A stretch of 36,400 bases of DNA from a bacterium. Lineage in GTDB: Bacteria; Patescibacteriota; Minisyncoccia; Phycocordibacterales; UBA9973. The stretch's first letter is position 1. Each line of letters begins with the position of its first letter. The notes under the pieces were generated by a model that was given only the letters and a program-made list of their open reading frames with translations, was not told where the DNA came from and made no database searches. A program made the position numbers and the translations under genes. The stretch covers positions 1-36,400 of the forward strand of contig JAIXRY010000013.1 of the NCBI GenBank assembly GCA_027484965.1. The letters run 5' to 3'. This document shows, in pieces, positions 11,956 to 35,159 of the stretch.

Positions 11956-11978
11956 AAGGGGCTCTCAAAATCTCAATG

Positions 11979-12052
11979 TTGCGGAAACAGGACTCGAACC
12001 TGCGGCCTCTTGGTTATGAGCCAAGCGAGCTGACCAACTGCTCCATTCCGCT
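11979..12052 (-). tRNA. tRNA with CAT anticodon (Met elongator or Ile2-like), no encoded CCA
   Basis: Cloverleaf: AGCGGAA / GAGC-AGTTGGTCA-GCTC / CTTGG-CTCATAA-CCAAG / GCAGG-TTCGAGT-CCTGT / TTCCGCA + A; 1-72 is an A-A mismatch. Confidence 0.88.
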
Positions 12053-26597: not shown

Positions 26598-26807
26598 TTA
26601 ATTGAATAGCTTTAAATACTGCTTCTCTTTTTTTAAATGAGAGCTCTTAGATGCTTTTTCTACTTCAAGCCTGTGAATTGGCAATTCTTCATCCCAGTAC
26701 ACATCATCTCTTGACCTTTGATAGCATATAGCAATTTCAGTTTCGAGATTGATAGCTCCTTCTCGCCTGAGCTGTTTAATGTTTTCCAATAACTGTCTAA
26801 CCGTCAT
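26598..26807 (-). CDS. Hypothetical early protein
   Basis: 69-aa ORF in the operon, overlapping the next gene start. Confidence 0.5.
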   Translation of the reverse strand: MTVRQLLENIKQLRREGAINLETEIAICYQRSRDDVYWDEELPIHRLEVEKASKSSHLKKEKQYLKLFN

Positions 26808-27577
26808 AAAGCCTCCTTTCTGTTTTTATACCCCTTCGGCATCTCCCGCCTCTGTAAGTATTCGGGAAACTCACTTATATCCCTGCCGTGCCTATCCTTC
26901 AAACCCAGCTCCTTAGCTAATCCAGTACCCAACTGCTTTACAAAAACAGGTACTTCGTAATGCTCTGCGTATGCCACCACTTCTTCAATAGATGCGAGAG
27001 TAGATGGCCTGTAACCAAACGGTCCTTTGTCGTTTCCACTTTCCCCACCAACTATAATCCAGTCAGGAAGAAAAGTACCTTCAAATCGAACTATCTCAAG
27101 TATAGGCTCAACGCTTAAAAACTTAACCTTAGCAGGTATTTTTTCAAGGAAGCCAACCCTACCATATACCTCATTATTTTCCACACTCACCCCCAACCAA
27201 ACATTTTCATAACCGCTACCCCAGTCAGCTGGCAAATGCTCCAACACCCGCTCTGGTCGCTTCGTCAATATCTGATAAGTCAAGTGAGGCGTTTTCTTAA
27301 TAATCTCCCAAGCCTCTGCCCTAAACTCATCAGCCCTTGACTCAAAGAAGTCGCTCATTGAACAAGTGAAAACCAACGCAGGTTCCTTCCACTTCAAAGG
27401 CGCATTAAACGTCTTATCAGAGGCCCTATTTAACTGCCTACCTGCATTCTCGTAACCACTCCAACGGTGCGCATGACGGTGCATATAACAATTCAAGCAC
27501 CCTGCACTTACCTTCATACACCCTGACCATGGGTTCCAAGTATGATCAGTCCACTCAATATTTGATTGCTCTGCCAT
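26804..27577 (-). CDS. Phage Gp37/Gp68 family protein (DUF5131)
   Basis: IEWTDHTWNPWSGCMKVSAGCLNCYM, FTCSMSDFFE, WLGVSVENNE, IIVGGESG. Confidence 0.9.
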   Translation of the reverse strand: MAEQSNIEWTDHTWNPWSGCMKVSAGCLNCYMHRHAHRWSGYENAGRQLNRASDKTFNAPLKWKEPALVFTCSMSDFFESRADEFRAEAWEIIKKTPHLTYQILTKRPERVLEHLPADWGSGYENVWLGVSVENNEVYGRVGFLEKIPAKVKFLSVEPILEIVRFEGTFLPDWIIVGGESGNDKGPFGYRPSTLASIEEVVAYAEHYEVPVFVKQLGTGLAKELGLKDRHGRDISEFPEYLQRREMPKGYKNRKEAL

Positions 27578-27614: not shown

Positions 27615-27902
27615 TTATTGGTTTTCTAATTTTGCCTGTATGCCTTTTGAATCGCAGCCAACATAAACCTCATCACCGTGTAAATCATCCATCTCCTCAA
27701 CAACGGTATAACTTTGGGCCTCAACTTTTTCAACACTTTCGGAAAGCGAATAACTAGGCAATGAAGAGATACCACCCTTCTCTTTTAAATAGCTATTTAC
27801 TTTGTCTAATGCCTCATTATCAGTTTCAGCTTCAACTACAAAATCTTTAAACCTTGATTCTTTCACAGTTTCAACCATGCAGAATTTATAAATATTTCTC
27901 AT
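27615..27902 (-). CDS. Hypothetical early protein
   Basis: 95-aa ORF immediately after repeat copy 1. Confidence 0.5.
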   Translation of the reverse strand: MRNIYKFCMVETVKESRFKDFVVEAETDNEALDKVNSYLKEKGGISSLPSYSLSESVEKVEAQSYTVVEEMDDLHGDEVYVGCDSKGIQAKLENQ

Positions 27903-27913
27903 CTCTCATTCCC

Positions 27914-27983
27914 ATTCGGCACGTCCGTCTCCCCGATTGTACCCCTACCCGCATTCGATGCCAAGGCTAAACCAGTAGGGGTT
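27914..27983 (-). repeat. Intergenic structured element, copy 1 (70 bp)
   Basis: Identical to 28220-28289; stem CCCCTAC/GTAGGGG. Confidence 0.85.
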
Positions 27984-27988
27984 GTGTT

Positions 27989-28210
27989 TTACTTTTTTAC
28001 TTTATTCAGGGTAATCAAGAACTCATCCCCCGCATTGAACTTGTTGAATAAGTCCGTATTTGTAACGGTCATACTTAAACTGCCCGCTGGCGTCCACTTG
28101 CTCCAGCTCTTGTTTTCCTCACTATCGCCAATCACAGGCTGCATTGCCCAGATTTCAGAACCTTCAAGCTTTGTAATTGAATTAACTTTGAATTTTGCTT
28201 GCACTTTCAT
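27989..28210 (-). CDS. Hypothetical early protein (start MKVQAKFK preferred)
   Basis: The track's N-terminal MASNAGRGTIGETDVPNKTV is encoded by the upstream repeat and starts at TTG. Confidence 0.55.
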   Translation of the reverse strand: MKVQAKFKVNSITKLEGSEIWAMQPVIGDSEENKSWSKWTPAGSLSMTVTNTDLFNKFNAGDEFLITLNKVKK

Positions 28211-28219
28211 AACTGTTTT

Positions 28220-28289
28220 ATTCGGCACGTCCGTCTCCCCGATTGTACCCCTACCCGCATTCGATGCCAAGGCTAAACCAGTAGGGGTT
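28220..28289 (-). repeat. Intergenic structured element, copy 2 (70 bp)
   Basis: Identical to 27914-27983. Confidence 0.85.
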
Positions 28290-30458: not shown

Positions 30459-30634
30459 TTCTTTTTTTCGGTTTTAATACTGATGGGACTGCTTTCGGTG
30501 CCTTCCAAGTAATCTAATGTTTGGAGTACTACTTTGGCTCGTTCTTTTTCGGTGCTTTTCGCATCAAACAGATGCCCTTCTGCACTCGTTCTTAGCTTCC
30601 TAAGTTTGGTTTTGAAGTATTCCTTACTAGCCAT
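30455..30634 (-). CDS. Hypothetical early protein (start MASKEYF)
   Basis: ATG at 30634, overlapping the MuB-like stop. Confidence 0.5.
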   Translation of the reverse strand: MASKEYFKTKLRKLRTSAEGHLFDAKSTEKERAKVVLQTLDYLEGTESSPISIKTEKKK

Positions 30635-31508
30635 TCGACACCTCCAATTCTGCCATACGTTGGTTATGTTGCAACTCCCCAAACAATGCCCTGAAATCTG
30701 GACTCTTTTGATGCAGTGCTTGTATTTGTGCTTTGTCCGTAATACCAAACTGATTGGCTGCTGCTGCCACGTCCTTTAAATTCATTCCTGGTACGTGTAG
30801 CACTTGCGCTCTAAACCTACTTACTATCTGCGGGAAGCAATGCGCTCTCATTCGGTTGCGCCTTGCCTTCGCTTGCAGATTGCTCCAATAGTTATTGGCA
30901 CCTACCAATACTATCGCACATTGTCCTTCCAAGGCATCGTAAATAGCTTTAATGGTGCTGTAGTTGTGGTCAGTCAGATTTTCCGCCTCATCCACTATTA
31001 TAATCGGGTTCTTTACTTCCGATAGCTTGGCTTGGATATGCTCTCTTAAGTCATACTGACTTTCATAGATGCCTAAGCCTAGCAACGAACCCAATACTTG
31101 TACAAACTTCTTTGGTGTAAAGTCCGCTGCAGCTGTAATCTTATAAGTGCCTATCGGGTATTTGCTAATGAAGGAGTTGATTGCAAAGGTTTTGCCTGCT
31201 CCGGTATTGCCGTCTATTACTCCCGCAAGCGACCAGTGCTTTAACTCTGCCAGCTTGCCCATAATAGACCTGTAACTATCGGTTTCTACCACATCCACGC
31301 CTAAGCCCATCGCCTTGGCAAGTGAAGTAAACACACTTTCAGGGATAGCGCTGCCATTCGAATAATCGTCAAACTTTCTCCCCAGTACGTGGGTAATCAT
31401 TGCAGGATTAATCTTGGCTTTCTTTGCCAATTCTGCATTAGATACTGTTTTCTCTGCCTTAAAGCGTTCCACGGCTTGGGCAATTTTTTCTTTTTCCTCT
31501 TTGCTCAT
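30627..31508 (-). CDS. MuB-like AAA ATPase / transposition activator
   Basis: N-terminal HTH; GVIDGNTGAGKTFAINSF; IIIVDEAENL; next to the transposase. Confidence 0.9.
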   Translation of the reverse strand: MSKEEKEKIAQAVERFKAEKTVSNAELAKKAKINPAMITHVLGRKFDDYSNGSAIPESVFTSLAKAMGLGVDVVETDSYRSIMGKLAELKHWSLAGVIDGNTGAGKTFAINSFISKYPIGTYKITAAADFTPKKFVQVLGSLLGLGIYESQYDLREHIQAKLSEVKNPIIIVDEAENLTDHNYSTIKAIYDALEGQCAIVLVGANNYWSNLQAKARRNRMRAHCFPQIVSRFRAQVLHVPGMNLKDVAAAANQFGITDKAQIQALHQKSPDFRALFGELQHNQRMAELEVSNG

Positions 31509-31530: not shown

Positions 31531-33723
31531 TTACTGATTAAAGTTTCTATCCGCCAAGCGCATCATTCGCTCGTAATGGCTATCTATGCTTTGTATCGGC
31601 GCAGAAGGAGCAGCAACCACTGGCACCAACTCTTCTTCCTCCGCTTCTTGGCTGTTGTTGAACATCTGCTCGTACATACTGGCTTCGCCTTCGTTGTACG
31701 CCTTCTTGGAGTAGTAGCTTATGCCCTCAAATCCCGCCTCTTGCGTAATCTGCTTGGCTTCTTCTGCTTTCTCTTTCAGTCTGCGCAATTGTTCCTTTTT
31801 GGTGGCTAATCCTGCCTGTACTTGTGGCACTGTGGTAGCATCGTAATCGGCTATCGCCCTTGCGGTGGCTACTTTCACATTCGCCCAGGCAATAAATCGC
31901 TTGTCGCCTTTGGTATCTTGGATATAGAGTGCCACTGGTGCATCCAAGTTTGTCGGATCTTGCTTTATCCAAAACCTTTCATTGGTATAGCGCAGCAAGA
32001 ACTCGGTATCGGCGTACCAAATGCCGTTCACTTGCTCCTTGTACACTTCGTAAGTATGCTTTACAGTTCTAGTCGTTAGGGTTATACCCTGCTTACCATA
32101 AACCACGCTATCCTCACGCCACATATAAAACATTGCCAACTCATCGTCCTTGGTATAGGCTCTTGCAACATCGCTCTTACCCGCCTTATAGCGTTCCCAA
32201 GGGGTTTTGCCGTCCTTGCCTGGTGTATTATTCCAAGTCAATAGTGCTTCTTCGCCCAACTGTATCGCCTGCTCCCTTGTCGGTAGCTGGTCAACTGGTA
32301 CGTTCAAATGCCTATCGTAGGTAGTCTTGGCACTGTTCACTCGGCTGCGTGAGCCTCGTGCTGTTATATTCATACCTGTGAAGCTGTCAAAGCTTCTAAG
32401 GATAGTATCCTGGAAGCGACCAAACGTGCGCTCAATCAATTTCGACTGACCGTTATTCGGCATCGCAGGGAAGTGAGTGCCTTGGTAGTAGTGGTTGAAG
32501 AAGCCTTTATTAGCTCCGTCATTATCCCACATCACCTGATGAGGAAAACACCTACCCGCCACTTCCATCGCCTTGCGCATCGCTTGCGATACTGCTGCAC
32601 TATCTTCTTTTTCGGTAAACACCCAACCCAAGAAGCAATCTGAATGTCCGTCCATTACAGCGATCATATTCAACCTTGCCTTGGCAATCATTTTGCCCGC
32701 ACGGTCTGCCTCTTGGTAGTACATATTGTGCTTAGTGCCATCTATATACCATATCGCATCGCTAAAGCTTGGTCTGCGTGTCATTAACGTGTACCCAAAC
32801 CTTGCTTTGTGGGCCTGTAAGCCATCACGCTGCAACGCTACTATTTGCGCTGTTTCAGGCTGGTTTAAACGGCGTTTAACGGTGTTATAAGATATCGCCT
32901 CCAAACCTTTTTCAAGTTTGTCAGCCTCTTTCTGATAGCTTGCAAATACCTGTCTTGCACTTGGCTTATTCTTACTGCTGGCAAGGTCTATTAGGTACGC
33001 CTCACCTATCTCAAATAGCTTTTCGGCATTTCTATTGCCAAAGCTGCTATGGATTAGCGTAATCGCTCCCGCCTCGTGATAGGCTTGCAACTTCGCCTCT
33101 ATCTGCTTTACAGTTGCAGGAAGTTTTACTCCTTCTGCTCTTGCGCAATCCACTAAAAACGAAAGACAATCTTTCCACGTCTTGCAACCTGTCAACTGCT
33201 CACGTTCCGCTTTATTCTGAAAGCAAGGCAGCGATATTAAATTCAGCCACCTACTTACTGCAATGTATTCCTGTTTTTTTGCTTCGGGCAATCCACCCAG
33301 TGCCTTGCCTTGCAATTCACCTGTGGCAGGATTCGCCACTTCACGAGTTACTTTAAACGTATTCAACACTTGCAAATCCTCCACCGTAGCAGCTGGCAAC
33401 ATTCTCAATATCGCCATCTTACCAGTCTGTTGGGCTTGCGCTCTATACTTCGCCATCATCTCCGCTTGTGTCGGTAACCCGCAGGCCTTTACCGTTGCAG
33501 CAGGGATGCTCGCATAAGCAACCAAGTTCTTGCGCTTGTCAGATGGATCACTAATGTTCTCCCATCCCTTGCCCTTGCCCGACCTGAAACGCTTAGTGCC
33601 AATGAAAATAGTATTTTCAGATACACCCAAGGCTTCCAATTCAGACCATTCCAAGAAAAGTGTTTGATTGATAAGTTTCAAAGCCTTACTGTTTAAAGTG
33701 TTGAGGTGCCTCCTTGGCTTCAA
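31531..33723 (-). CDS. MuA-like DDE transposase (TTG start in track)
   Basis: DDE positions: AIWYIDGTKHN, VMWDNDGANKG, QSKLIERTFGRFQ. Confidence 0.92.
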   Translation of the reverse strand: MKPRRHLNTLNSKALKLINQTLFLEWSELEALGVSENTIFIGTKRFRSGKGKGWENISDPSDKRKNLVAYASIPAATVKACGLPTQAEMMAKYRAQAQQTGKMAILRMLPAATVEDLQVLNTFKVTREVANPATGELQGKALGGLPEAKKQEYIAVSRWLNLISLPCFQNKAEREQLTGCKTWKDCLSFLVDCARAEGVKLPATVKQIEAKLQAYHEAGAITLIHSSFGNRNAEKLFEIGEAYLIDLASSKNKPSARQVFASYQKEADKLEKGLEAISYNTVKRRLNQPETAQIVALQRDGLQAHKARFGYTLMTRRPSFSDAIWYIDGTKHNMYYQEADRAGKMIAKARLNMIAVMDGHSDCFLGWVFTEKEDSAAVSQAMRKAMEVAGRCFPHQVMWDNDGANKGFFNHYYQGTHFPAMPNNGQSKLIERTFGRFQDTILRSFDSFTGMNITARGSRSRVNSAKTTYDRHLNVPVDQLPTREQAIQLGEEALLTWNNTPGKDGKTPWERYKAGKSDVARAYTKDDELAMFYMWREDSVVYGKQGITLTTRTVKHTYEVYKEQVNGIWYADTEFLLRYTNERFWIKQDPTNLDAPVALYIQDTKGDKRFIAWANVKVATARAIADYDATTVPQVQAGLATKKEQLRRLKEKAEEAKQITQEAGFEGISYYSKKAYNEGEASMYEQMFNNSQEAEEEELVPVVAAPSAPIQSIDSHYERMMRLADRNFNQ

Positions 33724-33728
33724 AACAT

Positions 33729-33751
33729 TCCCCCAGTCAATAACCGGGGGC
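33729..33751 (-). other. Hairpin directly upstream of the transposase start
   Basis: Minus strand CCCCCGGT-TATTG-ACTGGGGG. Confidence 0.6.
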
Positions 33752-33780: not shown

Positions 33781-33832
33781 TGGAAGCGACTAAGGGACTC
33801 GAACCCAAACCCGAAGGCAACCGTTATCGCTT
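33781..33832 (-). ncRNA. tRNA-like element 1: acceptor + T-arm + CCA, no D/anticodon arms
   Basis: Minus: AAGCGAT...CCTTCGG...GGG-TTCGAGT-CCC...GTCGCTT-CCA. Confidence 0.5.
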
Positions 33833-33841
33833 TTTAATTAG

Positions 33842-33862
33842 CCCCGATGCAGTACATCGGGG
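33842..33862. other. Hairpin CCCCGATG-CAGTA-CATCGGGG
   Basis: Perfect 8-bp stem between the two tRNA-like elements. Confidence 0.7.
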
Positions 33863-33902
33863 TTAACTCACTAAAAAAAACTCTGTCATTACTCTCAGCT
33901 AT

Positions 33903-33958
33903 TGGTGGAGGCTAGCGAGGAGTTGAACCTCGTCCCCTGTGCCTACCTAGCCTCACCA
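33903..33958 (-). ncRNA. tRNA-like element 2: perfect acceptor and T-arm, CCACCA end, no D/anticodon arms
   Basis: Minus: AGGCTAG-GTAGGCACAGGGGA-CGAGG-TTCAACT-CCTCG-CTAGCCT-CCACCA. Confidence 0.6.
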
Positions 33959-33978: not shown

Positions 33979-34368
33979 TTAAAGCTCAATACCCTCTCGT
34001 TGTCGCTGTGCATTCAAGTAATTAGCAGTTATCTGTTCAGGTGTTAAATCCACCCCTTCGCTAGCATCTGCCATCGGGTTCTCTTGGCTTACATACATAT
34101 AGCCTTCACGACTACTATGTATTTTTTCAAACTCCTCTTTTTTTAATTCTCTGAATCTGCGGGCAGCTTCATTAAGAAGTTGTTCTTGCGTAGTTTCAAT
34201 GGTTACCACCGCCTGTTGATAAATATCTACGGCAATAGCAACTCTAGGATTTAACGGAAGCTTGCCATTTACTTGCTTATAGATAGTTTCCCAGTGATAC
34301 TCACCAAGAAAAAACAGGTCTGCAACTACTTTAGAGTGCACTGTGTTAAATTCTTTTTCTTTGCTCAT
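33979..34368 (-). CDS. First early gene, hypothetical (start MSKEKEF preferred)
   Basis: ATG at 34368; directly downstream of the early promoter. The track's longer start overlaps the divergent gene. Confidence 0.6.
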   Translation of the reverse strand: MSKEKEFNTVHSKVVADLFFLGEYHWETIYKQVNGKLPLNPRVAIAVDIYQQAVVTIETTQEQLLNEAARRFRELKKEEFEKIHSSREGYMYVSQENPMADASEGVDLTPEQITANYLNAQRQREGIEL

Positions 34369-34398
34369 TCGTTTTTTACTACATTCGTTCGACTGATG

Positions 34399-34428
34399 CA
34401 AACATAACAACAAAACGGGATATGTCAA
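34399..34428 (-). promoter_or_regulatory. Early promoter, Bacteroidetes-type (TTGACA-N-TATGTTTG)
   Basis: Minus strand: -33 TTGACA (34428-34423) and -7 TATGTTTG (34406-34399), 19 bp after the TTG. Confidence 0.65.
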
Positions 34429-35159
34429 CATTTATTGATAATAATTTATTAACAATTCGGGATAGATTTATCTATGTAGTTGATACTCAAAAGGAAACTT
34501 CTGAAAGAAAATTAGCAGAAAAACTTGGCATATCCCCCCAAAGGCTCAATAAGGTCGTAAAAAACGGCACTGAACCCTCAACTGAACTAATATCACTAAT
34601 CGTTGACAGGCTTGGGGTAAATCCCTTTTGGTTGCTACACGGCAAAGGATCTCCATTTACTAACCAAAGCGGCTATAGTACCGCTCAAGAACCACCGCCT
34701 GGTTATTCCAATGCATCTACCGTTGGCTTTATTACGCCAACTGCAACGGTCCGCTACCTGCCTGATATGATGGTATCTGCTGGTTATGCCGATATGCTTA
34801 CCAGTAGCCAAGTGGAGTTATTGCCCGTTTCTTTTCAGCCTACAGCCGAAGAACAGGAAAAAGGAGTAGCGGTTAAGATATATGGCGATTCAATGGAGCC
34901 TGCAATTCAAGATGGTGCCACTGTTTTCCTTATGCCTCTTACACACGGCCAATGGCTGCGTATAAGTAAAGGCGTATTCTTTTTTGATACCGATAACACA
35001 CTTACTATTAAGCGTATCGCCCAAAACAACTTGCTCGGCACCCCAGCAACTATTACCCTCCAAGCCGATAACCCAAAATATCCAAACCTTACTCTGCCTG
35101 CAGAAAGCATCCGTGCCATCTGGAAGGTAACTCAAATCTTAAACCAACCAGTCCATTAA
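34422..35159 (+). CDS. S24-type (LexA/cI-like) phage repressor
   Basis: N-terminal HTH (SERKLAEKLGISPQRLNKVVKNG), GDSMEP catalytic Ser and TIKRI Lys. Confidence 0.92.
   Translation: MSTFIDNNLLTIRDRFIYVVDTQKETSERKLAEKLGISPQRLNKVVKNGTEPSTELISLIVDRLGVNPFWLLHGKGSPFTNQSGYSTAQEPPPGYSNASTVGFITPTATVRYLPDMMVSAGYADMLTSSQVELLPVSFQPTAEEQEKGVAVKIYGDSMEPAIQDGATVFLMPLTHGQWLRISKGVFFFDTDNTLTIKRIAQNNLLGTPATITLQADNPKYPNLTLPAESIRAIWKVTQILNQPVH

Follow-up and report, generated by a model that had tools for sequence, protein, structure and literature searches.

Genomic context of the locus

Judged from its sequence, the window (the whole stretch of 36,400 nt analysed here) is a Mu-like phage. An S24/HTH repressor gene on the plus strand (34422..35159) is divergent to the early genes, which follow on the minus strand in the order first early ORF, 255-nt spacer, MuA, MuB and a further ATPase gene (PHROG 6891). 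The first early ORF (33979..34431, probably starting at 34368) terminates at the spacer edge and has no Pfam or PHROG match. The gene for the MuA-like transposase (31531..33723; PHROG 310, 1.1e-54) starts at 33723 or, as suggested by alignment with relatives, possibly at a TTG at 33681, and is followed by that for the MuB-like ATPase (30627..31508; PHROG 296, 3.3e-27). Consistent with the ~255-bp non-coding stretch described in the original prediction, no minus-strand ORF of at least 60 aa is present between the first early ORF and MuA. A candidate early promoter on the minus strand (34401..34428, TTGACA-16-TATGTT), overlapping the Bacteroidota-type −7 sequence TATGTTTG, and a terminator-like 9-bp hairpin with a T-rich tail just 5′ of MuA (33730..33750, minus strand) are pattern matches only, and terminator-like patterns such as the latter are equally frequent in shuffles. 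Lying downstream of the promoter-like sequence and holding elements with no promoters of their own (see below), the spacer is probably part of the early mRNA.

The contig (36.4 kb in a 0.8-Mb bin) probably represents a misbinned phage with a likely Bacteroidota host. Its GC content is 44%, compared to 33-36% in six other stretches of the bin, and its tetranucleotide correlation with these stretches is 0.46-0.71, as opposed to at least 0.93 among them; furthermore, the window MuA is absent from all other searched genomes of the taxonomic family of the bin. Among named phages, the closest have hosts in Porphyromonas, Bacteroides (Hankyphage p00) and Winogradskyella. Querying viral and genome collections with the single MuA protein of the window revealed no relative, and a nucleotide search of phages with the window yielded no match. 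Elsewhere in the window, a tRNA-Met(CAT) gene with an initiator-like look (11978-12052, minus strand) is located amid the structural genes and has an A1-A72 mismatch, an fMet-like body and an ACA terminus without CCA, and an early gene at 26804-27577 (minus strand) looks, by eye, similar to the Gp37/Gp68 (DUF5131) type.

Two tRNA-like elements in the early spacer

The spacer carries two elements, both on the minus strand, with an acceptor and a T-arm of tRNA geometry. Element 2 (33903..33953), recognised in the sequence and supported by shuffles and a covariance model, has the architecture originally ascribed to it: the acceptor strands AGGCTAG (33953-33947) and CTAGCCT (33915-33909) form a perfect 7-bp stem, the T-arm CGAGG-TTCAACT-CCTCG (33932-33916) has a perfect 5-bp T-stem and a TTCAACT loop, the 3′ terminus is CCACCA (33908-33903), and the insert between acceptor and T-arm is 14 nt long and carries GTAGGC (AGGC). 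Its 3′ end is 180 nt from the MuA TTG start because element 1 intervenes. Element 1 (33781..33832), the T-arm of which was also matched by a covariance model, is the weaker example. Here, the acceptor (AAGCGAT, 33832-33826, with GTCGCTT, 33790-33784) is followed by an insert of about 18 nt that begins with AACGGTTGCC and has GG as ACGGTT (CGGT), a T-arm (GGG-TTCGAGT-CCC, 33806-33794) with the canonical TTCGAGT loop on a T-stem of only 3 bp, and a terminal CCA (33783-33781). Thus, the loop, the acceptor-like stem, the short T-stem and the CCA proposed for element 1 all stand, but in the standard 7+5 register 6 of the 7 acceptor pairs form and the discriminator is U73. The hairpin noted earlier between the elements, then given as 8 bp, was located by sequence and fold at 33842..33862 (minus strand; CCCCGATG-TACTG-CATCGGGG) and has 8-9 bp. 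The GG shared by the 2 inserts had escaped the original prediction.

When the window was shuffled 400 times with a first-order Markov model (29 Mb, both strands), a perfect T-stem and acceptor with a GG-bearing insert arose 0 times, compared to once in the real sequence, with element 2 being the sole perfect match in the whole window. A looser criterion that admits element 1 (with CCA) is expected to give 0.12 matches per window, and hence the occurrence of 2 elements within a single 255-nt spacer is not due to chance. When element 2 was folded alone with ViennaRNA, the tRNA-like fold envisaged for it had an energy of −18.0 kcal/mol, and a minimum-energy alternative was preferred (−24.6 kcal/mol); in the latter, the CCA is paired with a UGGU just 5′ of it and is thereby sequestered.

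Relationship to known RNAs

The window elements have neither a D-arm nor an anticodon arm with a 7-nt loop, and ARAGORN called neither a tRNA nor a tmRNA at their positions in the window. The comparison with Rfam anticipated at the outset returned likeness to mascRNA and tmRNA below threshold and no match above the gathering cut-offs. In particular, element 2 shares the acceptor and T-arm architecture of mascRNA/menRNA (RF01684), which are 3′ ends of eukaryotic long non-coding RNAs, but at 22.6 bits it remains under the gathering threshold of 42.5 and was not accepted as a member. Similarly, it shares the GGTTCAACTCC T-arm and the CTCCACCA 3′ end with the tRNA-like domain of tmRNA (RF00023), but scores 8.0 bits against a cut-off of 47, has no tag reading frame and differs at the 3′ end from the tmRNA encoded by the bin itself; its identification as a tmRNA was accordingly rejected. 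Among the related elements described below, Rfam at gathering thresholds matched two long forms as tRNA and no short forms.

In mitochondrial tRNA punctuation and t-elements, tRNA-shaped units lie between the genes of a polycistronic transcript. The window elements likewise sit between genes of one transcript, but they belong to a bacterial phage, the class is mostly non-decoding, and processing is only proposed here. Host RNase P also cleaves phage RNAs other than tRNAs, such as phage P1 C4 and phage M3 RNAs (PMC11143913); C4, however, is an antisense RNA, and no homology to the window elements is expected. No description of the class was found in Rfam or openly accessible papers; an earlier one may exist in subscription papers and preprints.

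Recurrence upstream of MuA in Bacteroidota

Using an alignment of the window MuA with phage MuA proteins as the query, we gathered 160 MuA loci in Bacteroidota, or 166 including annotated phages. A first descriptor (T-arm and acceptor with any insert) identified 67 elements in sense and 0 in antisense orientation upstream of MuA, and a refined version yielded 73 versus 1 across the 166 loci, compared to 1.0 and 1.8 in shuffled sequences. With MuA proteins clustered at 80% identity, a sense element was present in 34 of the 68 resulting independent lineages, a number that rests in part on near-start elements added by eye, and an antisense element in 1; half of the lineages had no element under the descriptor criteria. 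Conservation in related phages, on which the original prediction depended, is therefore observed. Most elements precede MuA or the small ORF before it and end 12-50 nt 5′ of the start codon of an early gene; 71% of unique elements, compared to 17% of random positions, lie 10-60 nt before an ORF start. Some operons have duplicate elements before different genes, and copies are also found before the ATPase gene.

In this class, as in canonical tRNA (RF00005), a 7-bp acceptor is combined with a 5-bp T-stem and a TTCRANY loop, and long relatives also retain the D-arm; unlike canonical tRNAs, the mimics are located in an mRNA leader and have neither a decoding anticodon arm nor their own promoter, with the short class lacking both D and anticodon arms. 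Element 2 displays all structural features that define this class of anticodon-less mimics of Bacteroidota Mu-like phages. Insert lengths range from 9 to 66 nt and fall into short (9-14 nt), middle (23-33 nt) and long (36-66 nt) groups, the shortest being minihelix-only forms resembling those of the window and the longest full-length cloverleaves in which the anticodon arm is aberrant. In the spacer of Porphyromonas phage L009, for instance, a cloverleaf with an unusual anticodon arm stops 15 nt short of the MuA start. The 3 groups are scattered across the MuA tree, in which the window MuA forms a long branch, and the acceptor sequences vary freely, with many different stems across families. 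The possibility that the elements have their own promoters was rejected, because TAnnTTTG is present upstream of 3 of 70 elements, which corresponds to chance level; a real tRNA-Asp in the same set does carry this motif upstream.

Covariation and covariance-model searches

Compensatory changes in the acceptor and T-stem, a further expectation of the original prediction, were found in both families analysed. In the Hankyphage-type alignment (17 distinct rows), two-sided compensatory changes affect 7 of 7 acceptor pairs, which are 99% paired, and compensatory changes affect 3 of 5 T-stem pairs, which are 100% paired, whereas in the replaced anticodon arm only 60-75% of cells are paired. In the short class (36 covariance-model matches, 32 distinct), two-sided changes are present in all 12 stem pairs, and the covariation score is 0.765, compared to 0.174 in the shuffled control and at most 0.153 with slid partners; given that this alignment was fitted to the model structure and is biased to it, the controls outweigh the raw score. 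GGY is kept in the insert of all 32 distinct aligned short elements and in 9 of 9 short matches of a scan not requiring it, and resembles G18G19 of the D-loop.

These patterns bear on 2 explanations that deny the elements a function as RNA. That they are decaying, functionless tRNA genes acquired by phages we consider very unlikely: the D-arms retained in long forms and the acceptance of 2 of these by the Rfam tRNA model would fit such an origin, but compensatory changes keep the acceptor and T-stem intact while the anticodon arm varies, and elements without promoters recur at the same place in many lineages. Less probable still, and indeed extremely unlikely, is that they are chance hairpins or sites acting at the DNA level, such as binding sites for a repressor or the transposase. 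Although the window elements lie between the repressor and transposase genes, as does the operator region of Mu, copies also precede the ATPase gene, the compensatory base changes and the conserved T-loop point to RNA, and the shuffle and antisense controls speak against this explanation; a chance origin of the class is already refuted. The elements were also considered as attachment sites, an idea that was dropped since Mu-like phages integrate by transposition.

Two covariance models were built, both without window sequences. The first (R1) was trained on an ungapped set of 10 short elements taken from loci outside the window. Applied to 30 genomes that carry MuA loci, it mainly recovered the known site, with one additional site lying 6.2 kb away in Petrimonas; across 394 Bacteroidales and 398 Flavobacteriales genomes (about 790 in total), it gave 23 matches, including 3 in training genomes. 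Outside the training genomes, 17 of 20 matches were near homologues of MuA, MuB or the ATPase; among those remaining, one was located at the end of a contig, where a MuA-like N-terminus follows a repressor. Another (L222:8001-8046, minus strand) precedes a small ORF in a phage that is not Mu-like and has genes for a terminase, a methylase and a ParB-like protein. The third is a tRNA-Leu gene, and tRNA-Leu genes (L217 and L238) are the false positives of the models. With the second model (R2), built from the 36-row alignment, element 2 ranked first in the window (E=0.055) and element 1 second, with the T-arm only (E=0.16). Support from the models for the window elements is thus modest, and the combinatorial shuffle test is stronger. 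In a genome detected blind by R2 (G1090), the window MuA is the best MuA query, and elements are located both before MuA and before the ATPase gene.

Two identical copies of a 70-nt repeat, on the minus strand at 28220..28289 (preceding a small early ORF that starts at 28210) and 27914..27983 (preceding one that starts at 27902), are low-confidence candidates for a third and a fourth element. They have a perfect 7-bp acceptor-like stem, a degenerate T-arm, a following hairpin and a promoter-like TTGGCA-17-TACAAT; both copies were promising with R1 (E=0.0051 for the former) but unmatched by R2, and the repeats may be either tRNA-like or a repeated promoter.

Possible roles in early gene expression

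The explanation we favour, and consider somewhat probable, is that the window elements represent a recurring type of tRNA mimic that acts in cis to punctuate or cap the early mRNA of Bacteroidota Mu-like phages. Such elements, placed in the early mRNA shortly 5′ of start codons, would comprise a coaxial stack of acceptor and T-stem (11-12 bp), a T-loop and a GGY replacing the D-loop, and their anticodon domain would be absent or no longer functional. Once folded, the element would show a tRNA elbow to RNase P, which might cleave 5′ of the acceptor; where relatives encode no CCA, a further cut behind the discriminator may be made by RNase Z. An encoded CCA, as in the window elements, favours RNase P over RNase Z. 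Cutting would detach the transposase message from the first early gene and provide the MuA mRNA with a defined short or tRNA-capped 5′ end. Of the 2 roles raised in the original prediction, that of processing sites is favoured, because the elements lie within the transcript and near start codons, lack their own promoter and display a stack of about 12 bp, a T-loop and GG, whereas decoys for tRNA-targeting factors are less favoured because the elements are associated with the start sites of particular early genes. The stacked acceptor and T-stem with a T-loop, a feature of RNase P substrates, is present in full in element 2 and partly in element 1. RNase P binds this stack and measures from the elbow, with the D-loop being dispensable and the T-loop needed (PMC4919913), cleaves minihelices (PMC11221534) and is known to process phage M3 and C4 RNAs as well as some mRNAs (PMC11143913).

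The features of the elements do not single out RNase P, given that EF-Tu, synthetases, the CCA enzyme and the ribosomal L1 stalk bind the same part of tRNA. The main rival to processing or capping is that the elements remain part of the mRNA and serve as operators for the translation or stability of the downstream gene, bound by a tRNA-binding factor such as EF-Tu, a synthetase, the CCA enzyme or the ribosome. The constant short spacing to start codons, the bias to the sense strand and the duplicates before different genes within one operon would all be expected of such operators, but the free variation of the acceptor, with many stems across families, argues against a single synthetase, and in the elements we identified no feature specific to a tRNA-binding factor; overall, we regard this explanation as rather unlikely. 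Unlikelier again is a role in trans, with excised elements either acting as stable small RNAs comparable to the P4 CI and P1 C4 immunity RNAs or diverting, as decoys, host factors that bind or cut tRNA. RNase P processing of the phage antisense C4 RNA (PMC11143913) offers a precedent, and excision would yield a compact tRNA-like RNA; however, in contrast to the preserved position before start codons, the insert, where an antisense sequence would be located, differs widely in length (9-66 nt) and shows little conservation between families.

Beyond a cutting site, the minimal tRNA elbow in phage mRNA leaders might, as we suggest tentatively, be a cis-regulatory module through which the host tRNA machinery sets the amount of transposase; if so, RNase P, RNase Z, the CCA enzyme, EF-Tu or the ribosome would steer the decision on lysis, lysogeny and transposition. 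Whatever acts on them, strongly covarying anticodon-less tRNA mimics recur before early genes in the transposable phages of a major phylum of the gut and the environment, Hankyphage relatives and Porphyromonas phages among them. In our view, they are natural minimal tRNA-elbow substrates, and tRNA punctuation in a bacterial virus becomes directly testable in cultured lysogens.

The class also calls for caution in annotation, as some phage "tRNA genes" called by ARAGORN are probably non-decoding. The tRNA-Arg(CCT) called in the early region of Hankyphage p00 (L010:1767-1850) is probably one of these: its anticodon arm is aberrant and forms a longer hairpin, the loop of which is GCAA in relatives such as L037. 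Finally, a second group of elements, with long inserts such as AAAGGCAATTAACTAAATGG, is located before ORFs 4-6 kb downstream of the MuA start, beyond MuB, at loci L025, L029, L057, L052, L054, L073, L079, L026 and L127.
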